IMG/VR virus record: IMGVR_UViG_3300020401_000039
Span: 1 to 36,446 of that record
Length of the DNA stretch: 36,446 nt
Reading direction: 5' to 3' (one strand)
Source: a virus
In this document: positions 1-28,991 of the stretch, piece by piece
Numbering within the stretch: position 1 is the first letter of the stretch
How the letters are laid out: the number at the start of each line of letters is the position of its first letter
Translations under genes and position numbers: made by a program
Notes under the pieces: model-generated
Databases searched by the model: none
What the model was told of the DNA's origin: nothing
What the model saw: the letters and a program-made list of their open reading frames with translations, nothing else

Positions 1-2160
1 TCAACAATTGATGGATATGTTAGTTTTGCTGCTAGTAAAACAGGAGCAACCAACTTCAACCCATACAACACTGATATCAATACAGTTCGTGGACAAGAAA
101 CTGGTTATGCTACTTGGAATCCTCTTGATACAAATTCAAGTTTGACAATATCAAATGGAAATCTAACTGTAGAGGCTCCTACAAGTGGAGGATCTATGAA
201 TGTGAGATCCAATATTTTTGTTGACAGTGGGAGGTGGTATTGGGAATATCACATGGATAATGAATATGGAATTTATGGGGGTATTGCAAATAATTTAGTT
301 GATCTAGGTAGTGCAGCACTCAACCAAGCAGGTGGTGTTTGTATGGGAGGTGGCAACTTATTCAAAGGTACAACACAAACTTCAACTGCTCCCACGCAAG
401 CCGTAGACGGAGATACCATGGGATTTGCTTGGGATGCTGACAATAATAGTATTGAGTTTTTCTTGAATAATATAAGTCAAGGAACAGTGACTGATATAGA
501 TGATGGTTATTATGCTCCAGCAGTCACATGCACTGCATATAATTCACCTGGAGGAAAGATAACTGCAAACTTTGGACAAAAACCCTTCAAGTTTCCACCA
601 CCTGATGGTTTCCAACCTCTGAACTTTGCTAATACACGTCCAGTCAAAGTGTTTGCACGTTCTGATCAGTTTGTAAGTGTTGATTTATGGACAGGTAATG
701 ATAGTACAAGAACAATAGAAACGAGAAATGCTCCAGATTTTGTTTGGATTAAACAGAGGAATAATAATGGTGCTCACATGCTGTTTGACAGTGTTAGAGG
801 TGCCACTAAACGTCTTGTCGCCAACCAAAACCTTACCGAAGGAACTGTACAAGGTGTGACATCTTTCCTATCAAATGGATATCAGTTAGGAGACGATGCT
901 GATTGTAACTGGATTAATAAAACTCATGTTGGTTGGTCTTGGAAGGCTGGTGGAAGCAAAAACACCTTTAATGTTGATGATGTAGGTTATGCAAATGCCT
1001 CTGATGTTGGTATGAATGTTGGTGCTCTGAATAATGAAAGTTACACCCAAGATGCTGTTTATAGTAATAATGTAAGTGCCAGTTCAGGTGGTTTTGGTGG
1101 TGGTGAGGAAGTAACAAAGGGTTTTGATGGAATTTTAACCTCAAAATGCAAGACAAATACTAATGGTGCATCTATTACCATCACATTTTCTCCTGCTATA
1201 AGTGTTTCATCTCTTCTTAGAGTAAGAACAAATTACTCAAATGGTTCTGGTTCTGGCATATCAGTGAATGGAACAGGTTATGGTGTCGCACCATCAGAAT
1301 CTGATGGCGAATTCGTAACTATCACTGGGTTTACAGGATCACTGACATCCATTGTATTAACCGCAGGTAGTAGTTATAATGCAGCTTTTTCTGCTATTGA
1401 AGTTGATGGTAAAATCCTTGTGGATGATGGAGTAACCCCACCTAATATTCCATCAATTGCCCTCACTGGAGCCTCTGTTGGAACACAACAAGGGTTTAGT
1501 ATATTAGCATACACTGGAACAGGTTCTGCTGGCACCTTGTCTCACGGTCTCTCACAAGCGCCTGATCTAATTATTATGAAAGGTAGAAACTTTGCTGACA
1601 ACTGGCGTGTTTATCACAGTCATTTAGATGATACTGAACCAGAGGATTATTATCTGATGCTGGAATCAACCAACGCAAAATCTTCTGATCAAGGTGCGTC
1701 GTTTATGAACAATACTGCACCTACAAACAGTGTATTTTCTTTAGGAACAGATAGTGCTATTAACGGCAGCGCAAGAACTATGATAGCATATTGTTGGCAC
1801 GATGTCCCTGGACTACAGAAATTTGGCAGTTATGTTGGTAATGGTAGCAATGATGGGGTATACATAGATCTAGGTTTTGCACCAAAGATTTTGCTCACAA
1901 AGTCTTCTTCACACGGATCAGACTGGCAATTGTGGGATACATCAAGACAATCTTTTAATGTAAATGCCAACGTATTAACTCCTAACTCTAATGCAGCAGA
2001 AACTGGTACAGGTGGTTATGCAGTGGATATGTTGTCTAATGGAGTTAAATTTAGGATGTACGGAAGTTCATCAAATCAAGGTGGATATACTTATATCTAT
2101 GCAGCATGGGCAGAAGCACCAACAGTCAACTTGTTTGGTGGAAGTGCTAATGCAAGGTAA
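1..2160 (+). CDS. Partial SPRY-domain phage fibre/adhesin protein (5' end outside window)
   Basis: The frame is open from base 1, so the true start lies upstream. At least 719 residues are visible. The N-terminal part reads as a SPRY/B30.2-like beta-sandwich (a 'RWYWEYHMDN' strand followed by 'YGIYGGIAN' and 'GDTMGFAWDADN'). A 'FVWIKQRN..H.LFDSVRG' segment and a C-terminal repeat follow ('ILAYTGTGSAGTLSHGL..PDLIIMKGR', 'KFGSYVGNGS', 'GFAPKILLTK'). This repeat recurs in the large fibre paralogues at 2890, 6475, 8478 and 21478. SPRY domains on phage fibres are taken to be ligand-binding; the target is unknown. It ends just upstream of a late promoter. Confidence 0.75.
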   Translation, partial: STIDGYVSFAASKTGATNFNPYNTDINTVRGQETGYATWNPLDTNSSLTISNGNLTVEAPTSGGSMNVRSNIFVDSGRWYWEYHMDNEYGIYGGIANNLVDLGSAALNQAGGVCMGGGNLFKGTTQTSTAPTQAVDGDTMGFAWDADNNSIEFFLNNISQGTVTDIDDGYYAPAVTCTAYNSPGGKITANFGQKPFKFPPPDGFQPLNFANTRPVKVFARSDQFVSVDLWTGNDSTRTIETRNAPDFVWIKQRNNNGAHMLFDSVRGATKRLVANQNLTEGTVQGVTSFLSNGYQLGDDADCNWINKTHVGWSWKAGGSKNTFNVDDVGYANASDVGMNVGALNNESYTQDAVYSNNVSASSGGFGGGEEVTKGFDGILTSKCKTNTNGASITITFSPAISVSSLLRVRTNYSNGSGSGISVNGTGYGVAPSESDGEFVTITGFTGSLTSIVLTAGSSYNAAFSAIEVDGKILVDDGVTPPNIPSIALTGASVGTQQGFSILAYTGTGSAGTLSHGLSQAPDLIIMKGRNFADNWRVYHSHLDDTEPEDYYLMLESTNAKSSDQGASFMNNTAPTNSVFSLGTDSAINGSARTMIAYCWHDVPGLQKFGSYVGNGSNDGVYIDLGFAPKILLTKSSSHGSDWQLWDTSRQSFNVNANVLTPNSNAAETGTGGYAVDMLSNGVKFRMYGSSSNQGGYTYIYAAWAEAPTVNLFGGSANAR

Positions 2161-2176
2161 TTAGCACCATTGTAGA

Positions 2177-2187
2177 CTAAATAAATA
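2177..2187 (+). promoter_or_regulatory. gp55-type late promoter
   Basis: Overlapping CTAAATA and ATAAATA boxes match the T4 late -10 element TATAAATA. The box lies between two genes, 29 nt before the start at 2217. A purine-rich CTAGGGGGAGAG could be the ribosome-binding site. It probably drives 2217-5331. Confidence 0.7.
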
Positions 2188-2216
2188 AAGAATAACTAGG
2201 GGGAGAGTGAACCCAA

Positions 2217-2888
2217 ATGTCAAGAGTTAGAGCCGATAGATTAACGGATAGGGCAGGCACTGGTGCTCCAACTTTCCCTAATGGTGCTGTGGTAACAGGT
2301 ATTATTACTGCAACTACTTTTGATGGTAATGCAACTACTGCCACCACTGCAACCACTGCCACTACTGCCACTACTGCAACTAATGCAACTAATGCAAGTG
2401 GACTGACTGGGACACCAAACATTGTAGTTGGTTCTGTTCAAGGAACCACTGGTACTTTTAGTGGTAATGTTTCAGTTGGTGGAACACTTACATATGATGA
2501 TGTAACCAATGTAGATTCAGTTGGTGTTGTAACTGCTAGAACTGGTATTGTAGTATCAGCTGGTGGTTTAGACCTCACTGGACCATACAAAGAAAACATC
2601 ACTGCAATGGGTGCATTGGATGTTGACTGCTCAACAGGTAATTACTTTACTAAGACCATCAATGGTAACAGTACATTCACATTTTCTAATGTTCCTTCAG
2701 GGTGTGCTTATTCATTCACACTAGAACTGACACATACAAGTGGAACTGTTAGTTGGCCAGCATCAGTTAAGTTCCCCTCTGATACTGCTCCCACTCTCAC
2801 AACAGGAAAGACACATCTGTTTATGTTTGTCACTGATGATGGTGGAACTAGATTCAGAGCTTCATCACTAGTAGATTACGTAGATTGA
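2217..2888 (+). CDS. Short fibre protein with DVTN module
   Basis: 223 residues. The N-terminus 'MSRVRADRLTDRAGTGAPTF' resembles those of the products at 5787 and 12790. Next come 'GAVVTGIITATTFDG', a Thr/Ala-rich tandem repeat (about residues 39-60), the shared block 'GGTLTYDDVTNVDSVG', and a C-terminal beta domain ('YKENITAMGALDVDCSTGNY'). The last is a fibre motif seen widely in marine phages. No enzyme motif is visible. The gene follows a late promoter and is one base from the large fibre gene at 2890, so the two probably form a fibre/partner pair. The structural call is by composition and context. Confidence 0.7.
   Translation: MSRVRADRLTDRAGTGAPTFPNGAVVTGIITATTFDGNATTATTATTATTATTATNATNASGLTGTPNIVVGSVQGTTGTFSGNVSVGGTLTYDDVTNVDSVGVVTARTGIVVSAGGLDLTGPYKENITAMGALDVDCSTGNYFTKTINGNSTFTFSNVPSGCAYSFTLELTHTSGTVSWPASVKFPSDTAPTLTTGKTHLFMFVTDDGGTRFRASSLVDYVD
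2331..2396 (+). repeat. In-frame 9-bp tandem repeat (Ala-Thr-Thr)
   Basis: About seven degenerate copies of a 9-base unit such as ACTGCCACT sit inside the gene at 2217. They encode repeated Ala-Thr-Thr, ending in Ala-Thr-Asn. The unit is a multiple of three, so copy-number change would keep the frame and alter fibre length. Confidence 0.75.
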
Positions 2889-2889
2889 T

Positions 2890-4866
2890 ATGAGTAACTT
2901 AACACGAGCAATGATGATGGGTGCTGCTGGTGCAGCATCTGCTGATCCCTTATATGTTGAAGATGTATTCAGCACTTATTTGTTTAGGGGTACAAAGCCA
3001 ACCCCACAGAACATTTCTAATGGAATTGATCTCTCATCCAAGGGTGGCATGGTTTGGATCAAAAATAGAAATGCTAATTCTCCAACTGAAGCTTGGGTTG
3101 TCAATGATTCAGAGCGTAATATTGCATATTCTCTTTCAACCAGCAGCTCCCTAGGTGAACAGAATTGGCCTGATGCGATAACTTCATTTAATTCAGATGG
3201 ATTTACAGTTGGAAACGACAATGATAGTAATAAAGCAGGATTTAATATTGCATCTTGGACTTTCCGCAAATGTCGTGGGTTCTTTGATGTAGTTACATAT
3301 ACTGGAAATGGTGTAGCAGGTAGACAAATTGCTCATTCCCTAGGTAGTACACCAGGAATGGTAATTGTGAAAAGAACCAATGGTTCAGATAACTGGACTG
3401 TTCAACATCGTAGCCTGGGTGGAACAAAAAGTTTATATCTTAACTTAAACAACAGCCAAGATACAAGTTCTGCTGAGTGGGCGAACACATCAGCTACATC
3501 CACTGTCTTTACAGTTGGCACATCAGGAAAAACTAATGCAAATGGTGATTCTTATGTCGCCTACATTTTCGCCCACGATGATCAATCATTTGGAACAGAT
3601 TCAAATGAAAGTATAATTAAATGCGGAAGTTATACTGGTGATGGGACAACCTCAGGCAATGTAATAAATGTAGGATTTGAACCACAATGGTTACTACTTA
3701 AAAATGCAGACCAGGCTTCGCAATGGGTTCTATTTGATTATCGAAGAGGTACTCATACTGCATCTCTTCAGGGAGATAATTATTTTCAGGTTAATGCTGA
3801 TGATATAGAGAGTTCATATGACGGAGTTGATTTTAGATCTAATGGGTTTGAACTCAAAAATAATGGTAGTTGGCAAAATACCTTTGGTAATACATTCCTC
3901 TATGTAGCAATTCGTCGTCCCTTTAAACCTCCAACTGCTGGATCAGATGTATATGGAGCCATTGCTTACAGTGGAGATAACAGCAGTGATACATTTAAAG
4001 CTACACCATTTGCAGTGGATATGTTGCTAACACAAAGAACCAGTGGTGGTGTTCCTTATATGTATGATAATGTAAGAGGTGGAACAAGATACATAGCCAC
4101 TAATGGCAGTTCTGCTGAGAGTGGTCAATCTAATGCAATTTATGGATTTTGGAATAATAGCTTACATGTAGGTGATGGTCCTACCATCAATCAGAGTGGT
4201 AGTAATTATCTTTTGAGTCTATTCAAACGTACGCCAGGTGTCTTTGATATAGTTGCTTATCAAGGTGACGCGTCCTCTTCTAATGTAGCTATTAATCATA
4301 ATCTTGGTGTTAAACCTGATATGATGATAGTTAAAGATAGAGAGAGATCAGGTACAAACTGGATTACTTATCATTCTAACCTTACTGCTACTCATTTTAT
4401 AAGATGGAATACTAGTCAGGATCCATCAACTAGTGGAAGTTTGGCCTGGAATGATACTGAACCAACTTCCACACAATTTACTGTTGGAAGCAATGGTTGG
4501 GATACTAACTATGCTGGTAGTGAATATTTTGCTTACCTCTTTGCAACTTTACCAGGAATATCAAAGGTAGGTTCATACACTGGGAATGGTTCATCCCAAA
4601 CCATTGATTGTGGATTTACTACTGGTGCTAGATTGGTAATAATTAAACGTGCTCAAAATGGTGCATCAGGTGATTGGTATATGTGGAATTATTTGAGAGG
4701 TATCAATGCTGGTAATGATCCATACATGAAAATTAACACTTCTGATTCAGAAGTTACCAACACAGACTATATTGACCCTGATCCTTCTGGATTTGCTATA
4801 ACCTCATCAGCTCCTGCTGAAATAAATAGTAGTTCTGAAAATTACATATTCTTTGCTATTTCATGA
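2890..4866 (+). CDS. Large repeat-containing fibre/adhesin protein (paralogue 1)
   Basis: 658 residues. A short Gly/Ala-rich N-terminus precedes 'ADPLYVEDVFSTYLFRG', then about four copies of a ~100-residue module. Module landmarks are 'FDVVTYTGNGVAGRQIAHSLG..PGMVIVKR', 'IKCGSYTGDG..NVGFEPQWLLLK', 'FDIVAYQGD..NHNLGVKPDMMIVK' and 'KVGSYTGNGSSQTIDCGF'. I associate the module with an uncharacterised cyanophage fibre domain (possibly DUF7483). Paralogues are at 6475, 8478 and 21478. The start sits one base after the preceding stop, so it is cotranscribed with 2217. It is a probable receptor-binding or virion surface protein; specificity cannot be read from the sequence. Confidence 0.75.
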   Translation: MSNLTRAMMMGAAGAASADPLYVEDVFSTYLFRGTKPTPQNISNGIDLSSKGGMVWIKNRNANSPTEAWVVNDSERNIAYSLSTSSSLGEQNWPDAITSFNSDGFTVGNDNDSNKAGFNIASWTFRKCRGFFDVVTYTGNGVAGRQIAHSLGSTPGMVIVKRTNGSDNWTVQHRSLGGTKSLYLNLNNSQDTSSAEWANTSATSTVFTVGTSGKTNANGDSYVAYIFAHDDQSFGTDSNESIIKCGSYTGDGTTSGNVINVGFEPQWLLLKNADQASQWVLFDYRRGTHTASLQGDNYFQVNADDIESSYDGVDFRSNGFELKNNGSWQNTFGNTFLYVAIRRPFKPPTAGSDVYGAIAYSGDNSSDTFKATPFAVDMLLTQRTSGGVPYMYDNVRGGTRYIATNGSSAESGQSNAIYGFWNNSLHVGDGPTINQSGSNYLLSLFKRTPGVFDIVAYQGDASSSNVAINHNLGVKPDMMIVKDRERSGTNWITYHSNLTATHFIRWNTSQDPSTSGSLAWNDTEPTSTQFTVGSNGWDTNYAGSEYFAYLFATLPGISKVGSYTGNGSSQTIDCGFTTGARLVIIKRAQNGASGDWYMWNYLRGINAGNDPYMKINTSDSEVTNTDYIDPDPSGFAITSSAPAEINSSSENYIFFAIS

Positions 4867-4869
4867 TAT

Positions 4870-5331
4870 ATGGAACTAAGGGTTAGAGAGACTGGTGAAG
4901 TTATTAGTGAAAGAGATTTACATTATAAGTATCCAAATATCTCTTTCCCTAAACCACTGTCACTATATGTCTTGGACACATATGGACTAGATGCTATTCT
5001 TGAAGGACCAAAACCACAAACTACTCCACCATATGAAACTGTTATAAGACAGGGTATTGAGGAGATTGATGGTAAGTGGTTTAAGAAGTATGCAATTGGT
5101 CCTATCTTTAATAATGAAGAGGATAAGAAATCATATAAATTAAAGATTGACACCAAAGCATCAGAGGATATTAGAAAAACTAGAAACAATTTGATATCAG
5201 AATCTGATTGGATGGGTTGTTCTGATGTTATTATGAGTGATGAGTGGAAAGAATATCGTCAAGCATTAAGAGATATTCCAGAACAAGAGGGTTTTCCACA
5301 TTCAGTAGACTGGCCTACTCAACCATCATAA
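4870..5331 (+). CDS. Phage tail assembly chaperone-like protein
   Basis: 153 residues. The C-terminus carries the signature of phage tail assembly chaperones (Phage_tail_APC type): 'RNNLISESDW' at about residues 107-116, 'EWKEYRQALRDIP' at 126-138 and 'GFPHSVDWP' at 142-150. The N-terminal half ('FPKPLSLYVLDTYGLDAI') is a variable substrate-facing region in this family. The gene starts 3 nt after the fibre gene at 2890, which suggests it helps fold or assemble that or neighbouring fibres. A late promoter overlaps its stop codon. Confidence 0.7.
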   Translation: MELRVRETGEVISERDLHYKYPNISFPKPLSLYVLDTYGLDAILEGPKPQTTPPYETVIRQGIEEIDGKWFKKYAIGPIFNNEEDKKSYKLKIDTKASEDIRKTRNNLISESDWMGCSDVIMSDEWKEYRQALRDIPEQEGFPHSVDWPTQPS

Positions 5332-5334
5332 ATA
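5328..5334 (+). promoter_or_regulatory. gp55-type late promoter
   Basis: ATAAATA overlaps the stop codon of the chaperone gene and lies 21 nt before the start at 5356. An A-rich stretch follows, with no clear Shine-Dalgarno. Confidence 0.65.
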
Positions 5335-5355
5335 AGAAAAAAAGCATAATGTGCA

Positions 5356-5754
5356 ATGACTAGGGCACGAGACTTATCAAGATTATCCAACCCAGGTGCT
5401 CTGAGTGTTGGAGGCAACAATAATATTGGTGTCAATTCAACAGCACCTGTTAGTAGACTGAATGTTGTGGGTGTAGTTAGTGCTACATCTTATTATGGAG
5501 ATGGTAGCAATCTGTCTGGTATTAGTGCCTCTGGATTGGGAACTGCTCTTGGTGAAACTACACCACTGGATGTCTTTTTTAAGACACCAGAAAAGATTAA
5601 CATTGGGTCTGCAACTTCAATTACAATTGAGTCAGATGCAACTTCAGGAAATATTGCCTTTGTAAGAGAGAATATCATTCGTGTTTCTAATGGTAGCACT
5701 ATGAGAGTTGGCACTGGAACAACACTCAGAATGAATATACTGAATCTATTTTAA
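5356..5754 (+). CDS. Small fibre-associated structural protein
   Basis: 132 residues beginning 'MTRARDLSRLSNPGALSVG'. It then has 'IGVNSTAPVSRLNVVGVVSATSY' and 'GDGSNLSGISASGLGTALG', typical of phage fibre beta-prism repeats, and the product at 18279 has a very similar N-terminal region ('RVGINTGVPSTTLEVIGV', 'GDGSNLSNLPASG'). The C-terminus is 'STMRVGTGTTLRMNILNLF'. It appears to form its own unit between two late promoters. It could be a shortened relative of the 18279 fibre. No enzymatic motif is visible. Confidence 0.65.
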   Translation: MTRARDLSRLSNPGALSVGGNNNIGVNSTAPVSRLNVVGVVSATSYYGDGSNLSGISASGLGTALGETTPLDVFFKTPEKINIGSATSITIESDATSGNIAFVRENIIRVSNGSTMRVGTGTTLRMNILNLF

Positions 5755-5760
5755 TAAATA
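5754..5760 (+). promoter_or_regulatory. gp55-type late promoter
   Basis: ATAAATA overlaps the stop codon of the gene at 5356, 26 nt before the start at 5787. AAAGGATC follows as a weak ribosome-binding site. Confidence 0.65.
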
Positions 5761-5786
5761 ACATAAGCAAAAGGATCTGGAACAAA

Positions 5787-6464
5787 ATGTCTGAAATCAG
5801 GGCAAATAAACTTGTTAACGAAGCAGGAACTGGTTCAGTTGAACTGACTCAAGGTGCTACTCTTCCCACTGGAAAAACATTGAGTGGTGCTGGGACTATT
5901 GCAGTTAATAGTTCAGGAACTGCTGCTGGTCTCAGTGGTTCCCCTAGCATCACAGTAACTGATATTGTTGCAACTGGTAGTGTTTCTATTGGTGGAACTC
6001 TAACCTATGAAGATGTAACCAATATTGACTCTGTTGGTATTATTACAGCAAGGAGTGGATTGGAAGTCCTTTCAGGTCTTTCAATTATGTCTGGTGGTTT
6101 GGTTGAAAAGTATGAAAATGCTGGCACAACTCTTGGTGCTCAACCTAACAACCCCATCACTGATGGTAATGTAATCCTGTTTACTGGTAATGAATCAGGA
6201 AGTCTTACCATTAACTTCACTGGTGTGCATTCAACTGTTGCATCAGGTCAAAATGTTTCATTCACTGTTGTTATTACACCTAACAGTTCTGGTGTTATTT
6301 CCACAGTTCAAGTTGATGGTGTAGGTCAAACAATTCAATGGTCTGGTGGTTCTGCACCATCAGCAGGAAGTTCAGGAAGAGATGTATATGTATTCACTAT
6401 CCTAAAAACAGGAACAGGAACCTCTGATTATGTAGTTCTAGGCTCAGCATCCAACTTTGCTTGA
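5787..6464 (+). CDS. Short fibre protein with DVTN module
   Basis: 225 residues. The N-terminus 'MSEIRANKLVNEAGTG' leads to a Gly/Thr-rich strand region and the shared block 'GGTLTYEDVTNIDSVGIITA'. The C-terminal domain ('LVEKYENAGTTLGAQPNN', 'NFTGVHS', 'WSGGSAPSAGSSG') is closely related to the C-terminus of the 18279 product, although their N-termini differ. That indicates module exchange. It is followed 10 bases later by the large fibre gene at 6475. Virion role inferred from paralogy and late promoter. Confidence 0.7.
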   Translation: MSEIRANKLVNEAGTGSVELTQGATLPTGKTLSGAGTIAVNSSGTAAGLSGSPSITVTDIVATGSVSIGGTLTYEDVTNIDSVGIITARSGLEVLSGLSIMSGGLVEKYENAGTTLGAQPNNPITDGNVILFTGNESGSLTINFTGVHSTVASGQNVSFTVVITPNSSGVISTVQVDGVGQTIQWSGGSAPSAGSSGRDVYVFTILKTGTGTSDYVVLGSASNFA

Positions 6465-6474
6465 TAGGTAATAA

Positions 6475-8454
6475 ATGAAAGATCATCACATTAAACAAAC
6501 CCCACTTCAAGGTCTTGAAGGGTCTGGTGGTGGTCTTGCATCTAGACTTGCAGGCGCAGCAGGAGTATCTCCAAAATACTTAGATGATATTTTTAGCACT
6601 TCTTTGTATCAAGGAAATGGTGCGGGCGAAGGAACTGTAATGAAGACTATCACTAATGGTATTGACCTTAGTGGTGAAGGTGGTTTAGTTTGGATCAAAC
6701 AACGTACTGACAGTAGAGATCATAATCTACAAGACACTGAACGTGGTATTGCTTCTATTTTAGAGACAAACAATAACAATTCAGAGATTGGGTTTACTAA
6801 TTGTGTAAGTGTATTCAATTCTGATGGTTTTAGTATGGATGGTAATGTTCAAGTTAATGCTAACGGGGAGGATCACGTCGCCTGGACCTTTCGCAAATGC
6901 CCTGGATTCTTTGATATTGTAACTTACACTGGAGATAGTGTTAACAATCGTACTATCAATCATAACCTTGGTTCAGAACCAGGGATGGTCATTATAAAAA
7001 GACGAGACTCCACATCAGATTGGCCAGTATATCATATAGCAGAAAAGAATGTACGTGAAGGTGCTTTAAATACAAGTTATGATTTTACTTGGAATGCTGG
7101 AACTTGGTTTGACCACAATGGGATGACATCAACTACCATTTCAGTTAAAAACCAAGCTGAAACAAATACAACAGGTGGCACTTATGTTGCCTATATTTTT
7201 GCCCACGATGATCAATCATTTGGGCAATACTCAAATCAAAGTGCTATTAAGTGCGGAAGTTATACTGGCACTGGTAATACTAATGGAGCAACAATTGATT
7301 TAGGATTTGAACCTCAGTTTCTGCTTTTGAAATCCTCTTCTTCTACTACTAACTGGGTGATATTTGATAATATGCGTGGTTTGTCTGCAAAGGGAGTAGA
7401 TGCAGTTTTATATGCAAACTTAGATGGTACTGAGGATGATACTAATCAAAATTTGGTCAAATTAACTAGTAGAGGTTTTCAAATTACTTCTAACTCTGTT
7501 ATTAATAATGTAAGTGAAGACTATGTTTATATGGCAATTCGTCGTCCCAATAAACCTCCAACTGCTGGTTCACAAGTATTTGATGTGAAGGATGTCTTAA
7601 TGAGTGGCACCAATTTAATAGTAAGTACTACATTGCAAACAGTTGATGCTACCTGGAATAAGATTAGAAATGCTAATGGAGATTGGATGAATAGTGACAG
7701 ATTACATAATGGATATTGGACCAGATTTAATCAACTAAATGCAAAACAGTATGATCCTAGTAGTGTTAAATATGATTATTCATATCAAGTTGAACCCTAT
7801 TATTGGTCAGGAAATCAATATCATTCACCATATATGTTTAAAAGGAGACCAGGTTTCTTTGATGTAGTGTCTTATATTGGTGATGGAACCACATCAAGAC
7901 TTGTCCCACATAATTTGGAGGCACCTCCTGAATTTATAATTATTAAGAGAACATCAACCACTGGGGATTGGTGGGTTTATCCAAATAAACCTGGATATAT
8001 GATGTATATGAATAGGGACAACGCTGAAACTACCTATACAGCTTTTGGTACTCATTCTTCTACTGCTTTCCAAACAGAAACAGTTGCAAATAATGACACT
8101 AATCAAAATAATGAAGAGTATGTAGCTTATCTATTTGCATCTCTACCTGGTGTAAGTAAGGTGGGCACATATACAGGTCAATCCAATGATTTTGATGTTG
8201 ATTGTGGATTTACAACAGGAGCTAGATTCATAATGGTTAAACGCACTGACACTGCTGCTGATTGGTATGTAATGGATACAGTTAATGGGTTGGGTGCTGG
8301 CACTGACCTGTTTGTAGCCCCTAACTCTGCTGCTCAAGAATCCAGTCAAGATCTTATTGATTCCATAATCCCCTCTGGATTTAAAGTTAATACTTCAGGA
8401 GGTATGCCTCTTGGTGTCAATGGAGCAACTTACTTCTTCCTTGCTATATCCTGA
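6475..8454 (+). CDS. Large repeat-containing fibre/adhesin protein (paralogue 2)
   Basis: 659 residues. The N-terminus contains 'TPLQGLEGSGGGLASRLAG', nearly identical to paralogues at 8478 and 21478 and probably an anchor or trimerisation segment. The shared modules follow: 'FDIVTYTGDSVNNRTINHNLG', 'IKCGSYTGTGNTNGATIDLG', 'FDVVSYIGDG' and 'KVGTYTGQSNDFDVDCGF'. The segment around residues 375-455 (Trp/Tyr-rich) is divergent from the paralogues and may be the specificity region. No separate late promoter is visible, so it is probably cotranscribed with 5787. Confidence 0.75.
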   Translation: MKDHHIKQTPLQGLEGSGGGLASRLAGAAGVSPKYLDDIFSTSLYQGNGAGEGTVMKTITNGIDLSGEGGLVWIKQRTDSRDHNLQDTERGIASILETNNNNSEIGFTNCVSVFNSDGFSMDGNVQVNANGEDHVAWTFRKCPGFFDIVTYTGDSVNNRTINHNLGSEPGMVIIKRRDSTSDWPVYHIAEKNVREGALNTSYDFTWNAGTWFDHNGMTSTTISVKNQAETNTTGGTYVAYIFAHDDQSFGQYSNQSAIKCGSYTGTGNTNGATIDLGFEPQFLLLKSSSSTTNWVIFDNMRGLSAKGVDAVLYANLDGTEDDTNQNLVKLTSRGFQITSNSVINNVSEDYVYMAIRRPNKPPTAGSQVFDVKDVLMSGTNLIVSTTLQTVDATWNKIRNANGDWMNSDRLHNGYWTRFNQLNAKQYDPSSVKYDYSYQVEPYYWSGNQYHSPYMFKRRPGFFDVVSYIGDGTTSRLVPHNLEAPPEFIIIKRTSTTGDWWVYPNKPGYMMYMNRDNAETTYTAFGTHSSTAFQTETVANNDTNQNNEEYVAYLFASLPGVSKVGTYTGQSNDFDVDCGFTTGARFIMVKRTDTAADWYVMDTVNGLGAGTDLFVAPNSAAQESSQDLIDSIIPSGFKVNTSGGMPLGVNGATYFFLAIS

Positions 8455-8477
8455 TAAGAACCAATAGGAGAAATTAA

Positions 8478-10478
8478 ATGAAAGACCACTATATCAAACA
8501 TTCCCCAATCCAAGGTCTTGAAGGGACTGGTGGTGGTCTTGCGTCTAGACTATCAGGAGGATCATCTGTAACACCAGGTCTTGATAGTGATGATGTGTTT
8601 AGTTCTTATTTGTATAAAGGTAACGGCAGCTCGCAGTCAATCACTAATGGTATTGATCTAAGTGGTGAAGGTGGGCTTGTTTGGTCAAAATTGAGAAATA
8701 CAGCGCCCTCTAATCATATTTTGCTTGATACAGAACGTGGAGGTCGTTACTGGCTTAATAGTGACAATACCAACGGTAATGGGGATCCTGGTGCCACTTA
8801 CATGACCTATAATTCTAACGGTTTCACTGTTGGAAATCAATATAATCTCAATGGAAATAATGAAGAAATTGTTTCCTGGTCATTTCGCCAAGCACCTGGT
8901 TTCTTTGATGTAATAACCTATTCTGGTGATGGTGTAGCAGGTAGGCAAATGCCTCACTCATTAGGCAGTGTGCCTGGATGTATTATTATAAAATGCACTA
9001 CTAACAATGATAATTGGTATGTCTACCATAGATCTGTTGGAGCAACCAAAGCATTGCTTCTAAACGACCCTATGGGTAGCTACACTACTGACAAGTTCTA
9101 TGATACTACACCAACCTCTACACACTTTTTTCTACCTAGTGATGCATCCACCAATGGGGTTGGCAGGTCATTTGTAGCTTATGTCTTTGCTCATGATGAA
9201 CAGATATTCACAGATAATGGCAGTGAAAGTATCATTCACTGTGGTTCCTTTGAGGGAAGTTATGGCACTGAAGTAAATTGTGGATGGGAACCACAATGGA
9301 TTATGACAAAGAGAATTGATGGTTCTGATACTTGGCGCATAATTGACTATACTCGTGGTTTTGGTACTGATGGAGGTGGACTTGTAGGTTTTTATAATTA
9401 CAATAATGCATACCTAGTTCCTAATACAAGTAATGCTGAGGATCATCAACGCAACTTATATGTAACACCCACAGGATTTAAGACCAGTTATTCCACATCT
9501 TATAATACTGACACTCACATTTATGTTGCCATCAGAAGACCAACAAAGAAACCCACTACTGCTAGTGAGGTATTTAAATTTGATATCAGTGGAACTTCTC
9601 TGGTAAATGATGTTGCTTTTACCTCTGGATGGCCTGTTGATTGGGCTTGGACAAAGGAACTTAGTAATACAGATCCCAACTATTTCTTAGCTAAGACATG
9701 GGGTGATACAAGATATTTGTCATCCACTAATGATAATTCTATTAATGGTGGTATTACTAATGGGGATTTTGATTATCAAACTGGTTGGTATGATGTAATC
9801 TCTGCTAACACATCACATATGTTTAGGAGAGCACCAGGATTCTTTGATATAACTAACCATATGGGAAATGGTAATTCTACTCAACAAGTATTCCATAACT
9901 TATCTGTCAGACCAGAACTTATAATTGTCAAGAATTTAGAAGGTTCTGGCACTGCCAGTAGAATATGGAATGTAATTACAGGTGCAAATAATTACAATAC
10001 TTGGGGTGAGTTGTCGAGTAATGGAGCTTTTCAATCCAATAATCTAACCTCTTATTTTGCTTCTACTCCCACAGAATCTTATTGGGAAGCAGGTTCAAAT
10101 AATAATGAGAATACATTTTCATATGTTGCATTTCTCTTTGGTTCAGTAAATGGTGTGTGTAAGATTGGTTCTTATACAGGAACTACATCTCAAATTAATA
10201 TTGACTGTGGATTCCCTGGTCGAGCATCATTTGTGATGATTAAGCGATTGGATGGAACTGGTGATTGGTATTACTATGATGGTGCACGTGGAATGGGTAG
10301 TGGTGCTTCTTATTATCTTCTCTTGAATAGCAATGCTGCAGAGGTGGGTGGTACTGCTTATGTTGTTGAAAGTCAAGTTGCATCTGGGCAACCTGTAAAT
10401 GGATTCTATATTGCATCTGGAAGCACACCACTGAATACAAATGGTGCAAGTTACATGTATATGGCGATAGCAGAATAA
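8478..10478 (+). CDS. Large repeat-containing fibre/adhesin protein (paralogue 3)
   Basis: 666 residues. The N-terminus 'MKDHYIKHSPIQGLEGTGGG' parallels paralogue 2. The body carries the same repeated modules ('FDVITYSGDGVAGRQMPHSLG', 'IIHCGSFEGSYGTEVNCGWE', 'FDITNHMGNGNSTQQVFHNL', 'KIGSYTGTTSQINIDCGF'). A good Shine-Dalgarno (AGGAG) lies 8 bases before the ATG, as expected for an internal operon gene. Tandem placement after 6475 looks like gene duplication followed by divergence of the middle segments. Confidence 0.75.
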   Translation: MKDHYIKHSPIQGLEGTGGGLASRLSGGSSVTPGLDSDDVFSSYLYKGNGSSQSITNGIDLSGEGGLVWSKLRNTAPSNHILLDTERGGRYWLNSDNTNGNGDPGATYMTYNSNGFTVGNQYNLNGNNEEIVSWSFRQAPGFFDVITYSGDGVAGRQMPHSLGSVPGCIIIKCTTNNDNWYVYHRSVGATKALLLNDPMGSYTTDKFYDTTPTSTHFFLPSDASTNGVGRSFVAYVFAHDEQIFTDNGSESIIHCGSFEGSYGTEVNCGWEPQWIMTKRIDGSDTWRIIDYTRGFGTDGGGLVGFYNYNNAYLVPNTSNAEDHQRNLYVTPTGFKTSYSTSYNTDTHIYVAIRRPTKKPTTASEVFKFDISGTSLVNDVAFTSGWPVDWAWTKELSNTDPNYFLAKTWGDTRYLSSTNDNSINGGITNGDFDYQTGWYDVISANTSHMFRRAPGFFDITNHMGNGNSTQQVFHNLSVRPELIIVKNLEGSGTASRIWNVITGANNYNTWGELSSNGAFQSNNLTSYFASTPTESYWEAGSNNNENTFSYVAFLFGSVNGVCKIGSYTGTTSQINIDCGFPGRASFVMIKRLDGTGDWYYYDGARGMGSGASYYLLLNSNAAEVGGTAYVVESQVASGQPVNGFYIASGSTPLNTNGASYMYMAIAE

Positions 10479-14820: not shown

Positions 14821-15894
14821 ATGTCACAGTTATACGTTGACAACATCAAAGGCAGAACAGGAGGGGCAATCAATGCACCTTCTGGTATTGTTGTATCAGG
14901 TGTTGGAACTTTCTCTGGCAATGTATCAATTGCTGGCACTTTAACCTATGAAGATGTAACAAATATTGACTCTGTTGGTATTATCACAGCACAGAGTGGT
15001 CTTAATGCCTCAGGAGGCAATATTGTTGTTGGGGCAGGTAATATTGATGTTGGGGCAGGTAATATTGATGTAACAGGTAATGTTAATATATCAGGAGTGA
15101 CAACTTCTGGAACTTATGAGGGAGATGCTTCTGAAATAGTTTCTGGTAAGTGGACTCTTGGTGCTGATTCAACAAATCATTATACTTTTACTGGTATTGG
15201 TTTCACAGTAACAACTAATGACCCTGAAATCACCCTACAAAGAGGGATGGTTTATCAGTTTGTCAATAATATGGGTGCTCATCCATTTAGAATTCAATCA
15301 ACAATGAATGGTTCTGCTGGAACTGAATATAATAATGGAGTTACAAACAATAATGTATCTAATGGAACACTGACATTCAAAGTTCCCTTTGATGCACCAA
15401 GTAAGTTATACTATCAATGTACTGCTCATAATGCTATGGGTGGGACAATTAATATTGATGGGGGACCTGTAATTTCATCATCAACAGGTGCTGATTTTGA
15501 TGGATATAAGGTTGAGAATGGATATACTACTGTTAGTGGAGCTAGTGGTACATTAGATTTTGTTCTACTTAATGGACACATTCAAACACATCAAGGAGCT
15601 TCCTCTGGCAATTATGGAGTAAACTTCAGAACTTCTCCATCAGTAACTGTGGACAGCATTATGGATGTAGGTGATGTTATCACTTGCACACTGATGGTGG
15701 CATCATCCTCTCACTATCTGAATGGTACAGTTCAGATTGATGGCAGTTCCTCTAACTTAGATATTGATTATGTTGGTGGTTCTGCACCATCATCAGCAAA
15801 TGGTTCAGGATATGACATTTATACATTCACCATTCAAAAAACTGCCACAACACCAGCATATCACATAGTGGTTAATGCAATGGGAGCTAACTAA
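14821..15894 (+). CDS. Fibre protein with embedded cupredoxin-like domain
   Basis: 357 residues. Residues 1-60 carry the shared 'GTLTYEDVTNIDSVGIITA' block, and a duplicated 'VGAGNID' lies around 70-83. Residues about 110-213 read as a cupredoxin: 'GFTVTTNDPEITLQRG', 'YQFVNN..AHPFRI', 'LTFKVPFDAPSKLYYQC', 'TAHNAMGGTINI'. Candidate type-1 copper ligands are His154, Cys200, His203 and Met206 (CxxHxxM). The C-terminal domain 'VGGSAPSSANGSGYDIYTF' is the same as in the neighbouring short fibres. Function of the domain in a virion is unknown; copper binding is predicted only from ligand pattern. Confidence 0.7.
   Translation: MSQLYVDNIKGRTGGAINAPSGIVVSGVGTFSGNVSIAGTLTYEDVTNIDSVGIITAQSGLNASGGNIVVGAGNIDVGAGNIDVTGNVNISGVTTSGTYEGDASEIVSGKWTLGADSTNHYTFTGIGFTVTTNDPEITLQRGMVYQFVNNMGAHPFRIQSTMNGSAGTEYNNGVTNNNVSNGTLTFKVPFDAPSKLYYQCTAHNAMGGTINIDGGPVISSSTGADFDGYKVENGYTTVSGASGTLDFVLLNGHIQTHQGASSGNYGVNFRTSPSVTVDSIMDVGDVITCTLMVASSSHYLNGTVQIDGSSSNLDIDYVGGSAPSSANGSGYDIYTFTIQKTATTPAYHIVVNAMGAN
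15012..15069 (+). repeat. Direct repeat encoding VGAGNID
   Basis: GTTGGGGCAGGTAATATTGA is present twice in direct succession inside the fibre gene at 14821, flanked by partial copies (AATATTG.., ACAGGTAATG). It is in frame and lies at the junction between the common N-terminal block and the cupredoxin-like domain. Confidence 0.7.
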
Positions 15895-26855: not shown

Positions 26856-27059
26856 ATGTGGAGACTCTGGGCACTTGCTCTTGGTAGAAAAGAGGGCAGA
26901 AATAAAAGAGATGCTGATAGGATTGCTATCATTCGCACTCTCATAATGGTACAGTTGATTGTTACCAATATGTTCATTATATCAGGGAATGTTAAAAATC
27001 TATTCTTTGACACTAAATATAGTGATTGTCCAGTTAAAATAGTGTCCACCACACCTTGA
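26856..27059 (+). CDS. Small membrane protein, cyanophage type
   Basis: 67 residues. The N-terminus 'MWRLWALALGRKEGRNKRDA' followed by a transmembrane segment 'IIRTLIMVQLIVTNMFIISG' (about residues 25-44) is a pattern I recognise from many cyanomyoviruses, where the function is unknown. A basic cytoplasmic segment precedes the helix, so the N-terminus is probably inside. Starts eight bases after the metalloprotease stop codon. Confidence 0.65.
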   Translation: MWRLWALALGRKEGRNKRDADRIAIIRTLIMVQLIVTNMFIISGNVKNLFFDTKYSDCPVKIVSTTP

Positions 27060-27084
27060 CTGTGAACACTAGATGCTCTATTAT
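27056..27084 (+). promoter_or_regulatory. Sigma-70-like promoter
   Basis: TTGACT (27056-27061), 17 bases, TATTAT (27079-27084). ATG at 27111 is 26 nt after the -10, with AGGAG between. Confidence 0.55.
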
Positions 27085-27110
27085 GTTAATGTAACAACAG
27101 GAGTGTTCCA

Positions 27111-27281
27111 ATGTCTTTCACTGCGTATCCTCAAAAAGCAAAGTATCGTGTGACTCTTGAGATTGATGTTTTGGATGACTTCAACCCGCATAATATTGAC
27201 TGGGAGAAGATTCTTGATGTCCAGGGTAATGAAAGTGTCACAGCATATATTGAAGACCTGAGCACTCCTGATCGTTGGTAA
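27111..27281 (+). CDS. Small phage protein of unknown function
   Basis: 56 residues: 'MSFTAYPQKAKYRVTLEIDV' then 'LDDFNPHNIDWEKILDVQGN' and 'ESVTAYIEDLSTPDRW'. Strand-helix-strand-like pattern. AGGAG stands 8 bases before the ATG. It has its own sigma-70-like promoter. No homologue recognised with confidence. Confidence 0.6.
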   Translation: MSFTAYPQKAKYRVTLEIDVLDDFNPHNIDWEKILDVQGNESVTAYIEDLSTPDRW

Positions 27282-27291
27282 ATTAGTTAAC

Positions 27292-27333
27292 TTTGGTGGA
27301 TATAAATACTTCTAAGATTTACTATCCACCAAA
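27292..27333 (+). promoter_or_regulatory. Hairpin spanning a late promoter and start codon
   Basis: Left arm TTTGGTGGATA (27292-27302) and right arm TATCCACCAAA (27323-27333) are perfect complements. Inside, TAAAT (27303-27307) pairs with ATTTA (27317-27321) after one bulged C, closing a 9-nt loop. The A of the start codon at 27333 is in the stem. The late box TATAAATA lies at 27301-27308, so late transcripts would start past the left arm and escape the hairpin. Read-through transcripts would fold and block the start. Confidence 0.7.
27301..27308 (+). promoter_or_regulatory. gp55-type late promoter
   Basis: Perfect TATAAATA, 24 nt before the ATG at 27333. Predicted start of transcription about 27313-27316, i.e. 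within the loop of the hairpin. Likely drives 27333, 27526 and 28296. Confidence 0.75.
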
Positions 27334-27524
27334 TGGCATATCATATCACTAGACCTAACGCTCTTGATCCTTCTAAGGTTGTCTACTACACAGGTGGTAA
27401 CACTTGGAGTGATAATCCTGCTGATAAGAAATCTTTTACCACCAAGGCAAAAGCAGAAGAACTGTTTCCCAATCCTGATGGACAAAATGGTGGATTTAAG
27501 AATGCAACAGCAGTAAAGAGTTGA
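27333..27524 (+). CDS. Small phage protein of unknown function, late expressed
   Basis: 63 residues, 'MAYHITRPNALDPSKVVYYT' then 'GGNTWSDNPADKKSFTTKAK' and 'AEELFPNPDGQNGGFKNATA'. Resembles small cyanophage proteins with a 'Y..G...W...P..K..Y.T...A' pattern. No Shine-Dalgarno. The start codon is at the base of the 27292-27333 hairpin. One base separates it from the next gene. Confidence 0.6.
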   Translation: MAYHITRPNALDPSKVVYYTGGNTWSDNPADKKSFTTKAKAEELFPNPDGQNGGFKNATAVKS

Positions 27525-27525
27525 A

Positions 27526-28299
27526 ATGAAAACCTTTCAACAATTTCAAGAGGATATTACTCCTGATGAGAATCCTCTCAACCAAGCAAATAAGAACGCT
27601 GAATATCGTCAGAGAAGACAGAAAGTAAAGCAGCGTAAGATGGCACAACATCATACCTCTACTAATATGGAAGAGGTTGAGGTTGATGAGGTCTATGATC
27701 CAGAGATCCAAGGTAGATCTCAGATCAAGCAGACTGGTGATGGTGGACGTAAAGAACCTAAAAGAGATACTGCATCAAGAAGACGTCCAGGTGTAAAACC
27801 TAGGATGAAAGCAATAGGTGGTGGCAAATCTGCACCAGTTGGTGAATATAAAGACAGGAAAGATATTGGTGCAACCAAGGCAAGAAGTGAAAGAGAGTCA
27901 CAACCAACAAAAGAACGTGGTTCTGCTGAGGTTAAGCAGTCATATGCTGATAAAGTAAAAGCAGAGAGAAGAGCAGCAGCAAAGGCAAGAATTGCTGCTA
28001 AGAAAGGTGGTGGTGAGGTAAAGAAAGACAAGACATCTGCCAAGGATGCTGAAAAGCAAGCATCTAAACTGTTGAAGAAGAAAGCAGAGAAAAAGGTAGA
28101 CCCTGGTTATAAACCACGTGAGGCATCAGGATACACTAGAAAGGAGAGAATGAAGATCACCAGAGCAGGTGAACGTGAGTTGAAAGGTATCATGAAGAAG
28201 CAGGAAACTGACAAGTATAAGAAAGCAACTGGTCAGAATCCTGATAGAAAAGGCATGACCAAGATTCTTGGTAGAGTTAACAAGAGGATGAGCACATGA
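27526..28299 (+). CDS. Basic protein with capsid-targeting-like N-terminus (putative internal virion protein)
   Basis: 257 residues, strongly basic and Lys/Arg/Gly-rich with no hydrophobic core, so likely disordered and nucleic-acid binding. The N-terminus 'MKTFQQFQEDI' resembles the T4 capsid-targeting sequence of internal proteins (MK-T-Y/F-xx-F-xx-E). The exact (L/I)xE prohead-protease site is less clear here than in the next gene. Late promoter and adjacency to 28296 fit a packaged, DNA-associated protein. Confidence 0.55.
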   Translation: MKTFQQFQEDITPDENPLNQANKNAEYRQRRQKVKQRKMAQHHTSTNMEEVEVDEVYDPEIQGRSQIKQTGDGGRKEPKRDTASRRRPGVKPRMKAIGGGKSAPVGEYKDRKDIGATKARSERESQPTKERGSAEVKQSYADKVKAERRAAAKARIAAKKGGGEVKKDKTSAKDAEKQASKLLKKKAEKKVDPGYKPREASGYTRKERMKITRAGERELKGIMKKQETDKYKKATGQNPDRKGMTKILGRVNKRMST

Positions 28300-28991
28300 A
28301 ATCTTTCAGCAACTTTATCCAAGAGGCAAGATCTGCTGATGAAATCACAGCAGATGCCAGAGAACAAAATAGAGAGAGAAGTGCAGAGGCAAGAAAGAGA
28401 TTGCGTGCTAAAAGAGATGCAATCAAAGCAAATACTGATGTTAGATTAGGTGGTGTATCACATAATGAAGAAACTATTCTAGAATATTCTGGTCAAGCAA
28501 TCACTAATACCACACAAGGTGGTGGATCTGGGACCAGAGATGATATGGACAGAAAACTGATTGACAGAGTGAGAGGAAGAACTAATGCCAAGAAAGCAAC
28601 TAACAATGTTGCTAAACAGTCAGGACAATCTGTAAAGAATGCCACTGACAATACAGCAGGCACAGGTTCACAAAGAAAACCACAACCTTATAGACAAGCA
28701 AATAAGACTGCATCTGCTAAACCTGAAAAAGGTGGTGCAATCACAAAGACAGGTGATAGGAAACCATCTGCAATGGTCAAGAAACCAGTATCAAAAGCAG
28801 TTGCACAAGTGAGAGTTAAAGTTCATGGTGGAAGACCTGGATTAGGCACAGCACAGAGACCAGATCTTGCTGGTGTTAAACCTAAACCAATGATTGCTGC
28901 TGCTCCACAACAGAAACCAATTGCTGGTGGTAGTCAACAGAAACTGTCTGGTAGTCCACAGAGAAAAGCATTACCTGCTGCAAGGAGTTAA
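28296..28991 (+). CDS. Basic protein with capsid-targeting sequence (putative internal virion protein)
   Basis: 231 residues. The N-terminus 'MKSFSNFIQEARSADE' closely matches T4 internal-protein targeting peptides. 'I-Q-E' followed by Ala (residues 8-11) is a good prohead protease gp21 site ((L/I)xE). The rest is basic and low-complexity ('ARKRLRAKRDAIKANTD', then Pro/Gln/Lys-rich). It overlaps 27526 as ATGA. Prediction: packaged with DNA and processed in the head. Not shown by sequence: any enzymatic activity. Confidence 0.6.
   Translation: MKSFSNFIQEARSADEITADAREQNRERSAEARKRLRAKRDAIKANTDVRLGGVSHNEETILEYSGQAITNTTQGGGSGTRDDMDRKLIDRVRGRTNAKKATNNVAKQSGQSVKNATDNTAGTGSQRKPQPYRQANKTASAKPEKGGAITKTGDRKPSAMVKKPVSKAVAQVRVKVHGGRPGLGTAQRPDLAGVKPKPMIAAAPQQKPIAGGSQQKLSGSPQRKALPAARS

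Follow-up and report, generated by a model that had tools for sequence, protein, structure and literature searches.

The window, by which we mean the whole stretch of 36,446 nucleotides analysed here, represents part of a T4-like cyanophage; Synechococcus and Prochlorococcus phages are the annotated relatives closest to it. The genes and signals around the hairpin at 27292-27333 are as follows.

27056-27084, plus strand: sigma-70-like promoter TTGACT-17-TATTAT, which would yield read-through RNA
27099-27103, plus strand: Shine-Dalgarno-like AGGAG of the 56-aa gene
27111-27281, plus strand: 56-aa gene (phrog_12516), upstream of the hairpin
27292-27302, plus strand: outer 5' arm TTTGGTGGATA, 11 bp perfect, missing from the predicted late RNA
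27301-27308, plus strand: T4-type late box TATAAATA, within the 5' arm of the hairpin
27303-27307/27317-27321, plus strand: inner stem of 5 bp, from the fold (the span 27303-27321 includes the loop)
27309-27310/27315-27316, plus strand: two further pairs, from the fold
27323-27333, plus strand: outer 3' arm TATCCACCAAA, 11 bp perfect, its last base the A of ATG
27333-27524, plus strand: 63-aa gene (phrog_24339), directly behind the hairpin; it adjoins gp23 in other cyanophages
27526-28299, plus strand: 257-aa gene, starting 1 nt past the stop of the 63-aa gene; N-terminus MKTFQQFQED
28296-28991, plus strand: 231-aa gene, overlapping the stop of the 257-aa gene; N-terminus MKSFSNFIQEA, in the same style as that of the 257-aa gene

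The locus and its hairpin

The sigma-70-like promoter that the initial annotation had placed at 27056 was found, and its position is conserved: it precedes the 56-aa gene in 19/19 sequences, always with a spacer of 17 nt and starting 53-57 nt upstream of the ATG. A Shine-Dalgarno-like tetramer stands before the 56-aa gene in all 14 homologues, and terminator calling gave nothing on the coding strand from the promoter to the hairpin. For the genes behind the hairpin, we take the N-termini of the 257-aa and 231-aa proteins to resemble T4 internal-protein leaders, and this likeness suggests that the downstream proteins may be packaged. The small 63-aa protein gave a fairly confident predicted model (pLDDT 84) with no significant match in the PDB (best E 0.95). 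At 142-10478 of the window, four large ORFs share matches to tail-fibre or virion structural families (phrog_19943, phrog_24898), which suggests a row of paralogues.

The hairpin itself is real. A perfect inverted repeat of 11 bp plus 5 bp, lying over the late box and reaching the first base of the start codon, had been described in the initial annotation and is confirmed at 27292-27333 on the plus strand, where the fold adds the two further pairs (11+5(+2) bp). It ranks first in the window among inverted repeats no more than 60 nt apart, and its fold of -18.1 kcal/mol compares with -7.55 +/- 2.34 kcal/mol for dinucleotide shuffles (z = -4.5; 0/200 as stable). No comparable stem was present at any of the other TAAATA sites that precede genes in the window, and a search of the window against Rfam gave no match. 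All nine ATAAATA words of the window are on the plus (coding) strand, from 2181 to 27302; their count equals the chance expectation.

Distribution of the hairpin among relatives

Homologues of the 63-aa gene were collected from at least 77 viral-contig loci and from named phages, and the homologous leaders were reduced to distinct ones, 20 of them behind the 56-aa gene and 47 elsewhere. Two settings of the gene are prominent. In one, exemplified by the window, RN05-S and S-B05, it lies directly 3' of the 56-aa gene; in the other, which includes S-SM2, Bellamy and P-TIM68, its upstream neighbour is mostly gp23, the gene for the major capsid protein. The late box is spanned by a hairpin in 20/20 distinct leaders directly behind the 56-aa gene vs 0/47 in all other settings; given that two changes of hairpin setting suffice on the tree of the 63-aa protein, a single origin also being possible, this contrast does not represent 67 independent observations, and we regard the link between hairpin and gene order in these leaders as suggestive. 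The gap between the end of the stem and the AUG reaches ~7 nt in some relatives.

The phages with the gene after gp23 (S-SM2, Bellamy, P-TIM68) carry the same 63-aa gene family and a late box, but there a U-tailed terminator 5' of the box intercepts read-through and the box hairpin is absent; a simple detector called such a terminator upstream of the late box in 20 leaders of the non-hairpin group. At one locus (L091) the 56-aa gene lies 398 nt upstream, an extra gene and a terminator-like hairpin intervene, and there is no box hairpin. Terminator flags at two further loci (L061, L062) fall inside the 56-aa gene and look spurious. P-TIM68 is a possible exception to the association of the 56-aa gene with the hairpin, as a homologue of the 257-aa gene there directly follows the 56-aa gene (45022-45100), with TAAATA present and the hairpin absent.

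Covariation of the arms

The TAAATA core is invariant across the 20 distinct leaders. Around this anchor, the upstream arm is 41% identical among relatives vs 65% for the first 36 nt of the gene, and most arm positions are occupied by several Watson-Crick pair types. A MAFFT alignment of the whole set placed the 3' arms out of register, and covariation was therefore tested through arm swapping and in one subgroup. Exchanging arms between leaders weakened the mean fold from -15.1 kcal/mol (native) to -7.7 kcal/mol, and 0/100,000 permutations matched the native total. In the largest alignable subgroup, two-sided changes were seen in 8/11 pairs, with a covariation score of 0.603 vs 0.266 when shuffled and at most 0.195 when slid, and with 87.6% pairing cells vs 68.8% shuffled and at most 60% slid; the subgroup structure was derived from the same sequences, which favours the unslid register, and the arm-swap test is independent of any alignment.

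The covariation of the arms that the initial annotation had proposed to look for in relatives is thus strongly evident, both in the arm swap and in the 8/11 pairs; rather than arms neither conserved nor covarying, we found a conserved structure with covarying arms. By this comparison of leaders the hairpin is conserved as a structure and not as a sequence, and the covariation indicates that its pairs are under selection.

Read-through and late transcripts

The late start was predicted from T4 late-promoter geometry, with the box at -13 to -6, which puts the predicted late +1 at A27314, at the loop, so that late RNA would retain the 3' arm only. In computed folds the hairpin cannot form in RNA from this predicted start, and the fold of the read-through RNA that had been suggested as a check still contains the hairpin in the longer RNA. 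For the 20 hairpin leaders, the computed cost of opening the start region has a median of 13.6 kcal/mol on read-through RNA vs 3.7 kcal/mol on late RNA; for the 47 leaders without a hairpin the values are 3.6 vs 2.7 kcal/mol. None of the 20 late leaders of the 63-aa gene has a Shine-Dalgarno-like tetramer, so that what the hairpin would hide is the leader and AUG and not a Shine-Dalgarno sequence.

We consider it likely that the hairpin shields the start of a late gene on read-through RNA and leaves it open on late RNA. The late gene lies directly behind an early-type transcription unit, and the late promoter itself would form the 5' arm of the hairpin. Read-through RNA from the sigma-70-like promoter before the 56-aa gene would carry both arms, the hairpin would fold and hide the leader up to the AUG, and the 63-aa gene would hardly be translated; the same probably applies to the 257-aa gene, 1 nt further on. 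RNA from the late promoter would start at the loop without the 5' arm and be translatable, and the protein would thereby be made only late. We infer where exactly late RNA starts, that read-through takes place, that translation is blocked and how this is timed. The interpretation of the initial annotation, in which the hairpin silences read-through but not late transcripts, gains support from the covariation, the conserved promoter and the setting-linked hairpin; the inference draws on covariation in ~20 leaders and on a comparison provided by nature, in which the 63-aa gene has or lacks the hairpin according to its neighbour.

The hairpin of the window is the arrangement of T4 e, 49, segB and I-TevI. 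That the T4 lysozyme gene e, soc and gene 49 use this logic, as the initial annotation had it, is borne out by passages of a review (PMC3014915). According to passages of PMC3014915 and PMC2988022, the leaders of e, soc, 49 and I-TevI share the same hairpin logic, and I-TevII, I-TevIII, segB and Aeh1 mobE have related layouts. The likeness to e, soc and 49 extends to a late box TATAAATA in the 5' arm, a 3' arm over the start and a late RNA without the 5' arm, as set out in part of PMC3014915, but in those genes the Shine-Dalgarno sequence lies in the stem, which is so for none of the window's family (0/20); the gene is also a different one, and the window's phage has a cyanobacterial host. I-TevI, I-TevII, segB and Aeh1 mobE likewise present a late gene inside an early or middle unit, with a hairpin only on the read-through RNA (passages of PMC2988022), although these are homing endonucleases and the 63-aa gene is not. 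Those passages of the T4 reviews (PMC2988022, PMC3014915) contain no cyanophage case, and our literature search returned no paper joining cyanophage, hairpin, ribosome binding site and late genes. The locus offers a concrete predicted site of translational timing control, at a start without a Shine-Dalgarno sequence, in phages that are without the T4 middle-promoter activator (PMC2984593).

Alternative explanations

It is unlikely, in our judgement, that the main role of the hairpin is to direct processing of the early mRNA or to stabilise its 3' end, for instance as an RNase site, with the overlap of box and AUG a by-product of tight spacing. The hairpin does lie 45-59 nt past the 56-aa gene in all relatives, where a stem could mark the end of the upstream mRNA or make that end more stable; but the hairpin invariably includes the late box and stops within a few nucleotides of the AUG, it is missing where the 63-aa gene has another upstream neighbour, and an element of this kind needs no promoter inside it.

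A strong stem between two units would also fit an intrinsic terminator that closes the early unit and contains a late promoter, and yet this seems very improbable here: the stem is followed by no U-run (0-2 T in the 8 nt past it), terminators before homologous genes in the same phage family have long U-runs, and no plus-strand terminator was called at the hairpin. We likewise see very little prospect that a dimeric regulator of the late promoter binds the repeat as a palindrome in the DNA, for which the perfect 11-bp dyad over the promoter might speak, since a protein site would keep its sequence and the arms retain their pairing at only 41% identity. A chance inverted repeat in AT-rich DNA can practically be dismissed, in that loose box-spanning folds do occur at ~8% of cyanophage boxes, and equally at control words, but the shuffles (z = -4.5) speak against chance here and the covariation across 20 distinct leaders refutes it. 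Shielding of the late gene start on read-through RNA remains our preferred reading.

Late-box hairpins elsewhere in cyanophages

Ten complete cyanophage genomes were scanned genome-wide for box hairpins, with control words for comparison. The same scan applied to T4 as a positive control returned, among its hits, e, 49, I-TevII, segB and I-TevI, which we presume to be correctly named from ORF length and map position. The ten cyanophage genomes showed no enrichment of strict box hairpins (6/569 boxes vs 18/3012 control words, P = 0.17), nor was enrichment significant under loose, intermediate or strict criteria; the device would thus be confined to particular genes and not be general to cyanophage late promoters. 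Two candidates from the scan, S-SM2 22398 and Bellamy 23795, follow tRNA-like 3' sequence and were dropped, the box of the former being inside an annotated tRNA-Leu, and several of the top hits by accessibility only are terminators just downstream of a box.

An unannotated HNH-endonuclease-like ORF, for which the Pfam HNH match is just below cut-off, lies between tRNA genes in RN05-S (110106-109696, minus strand; L225), and a long stem covers TATAAATA before its ATG, as at T4 segB. A relative in DSL-LC03 has another such stem, and among the related HNH loci of viral contigs there are many whose box is covered by a stem finishing close to the ATG. In L227 (~757-803) and in L230-L240 and L249 (~957-1003), HNH genes have a near-identical late-box hairpin ending at the ATG and upstream sequence that differs, as if the hairpin travelled with the HNH cassette.

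Tentatively, and with more doubt than confidence, late-box hairpins might serve T4-like phages far outside the T4 group as portable insulation modules, brought along or evolved when a late gene or homing-endonuclease cassette comes to lie behind an early unit. If this is true, a stem around a gene's own late promoter would take the place of an upstream terminator, a single rule would account for both the 63-aa gene and the HNH cassettes inserted at different sites, and the same rule would extend to starts without a Shine-Dalgarno sequence.

Stems over a late box were also observed at tail-fibre genes of Sf-CH8 (15792-15829; L223) and S-T4 (L228, ~1384-1430), where the inner stem is common to both phages and the outer stem differs between them. 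In S-RSM4 (96885-96856, minus strand), an 18-bp stem covers TATAAATA before a 63-aa gene behind a giant tail-fibre gene. Because these stems are in late-looking surroundings, such structures may have uses besides shielding from early RNA. The 63-aa gene of S-RSM4 is unrelated in sequence to that of the window.
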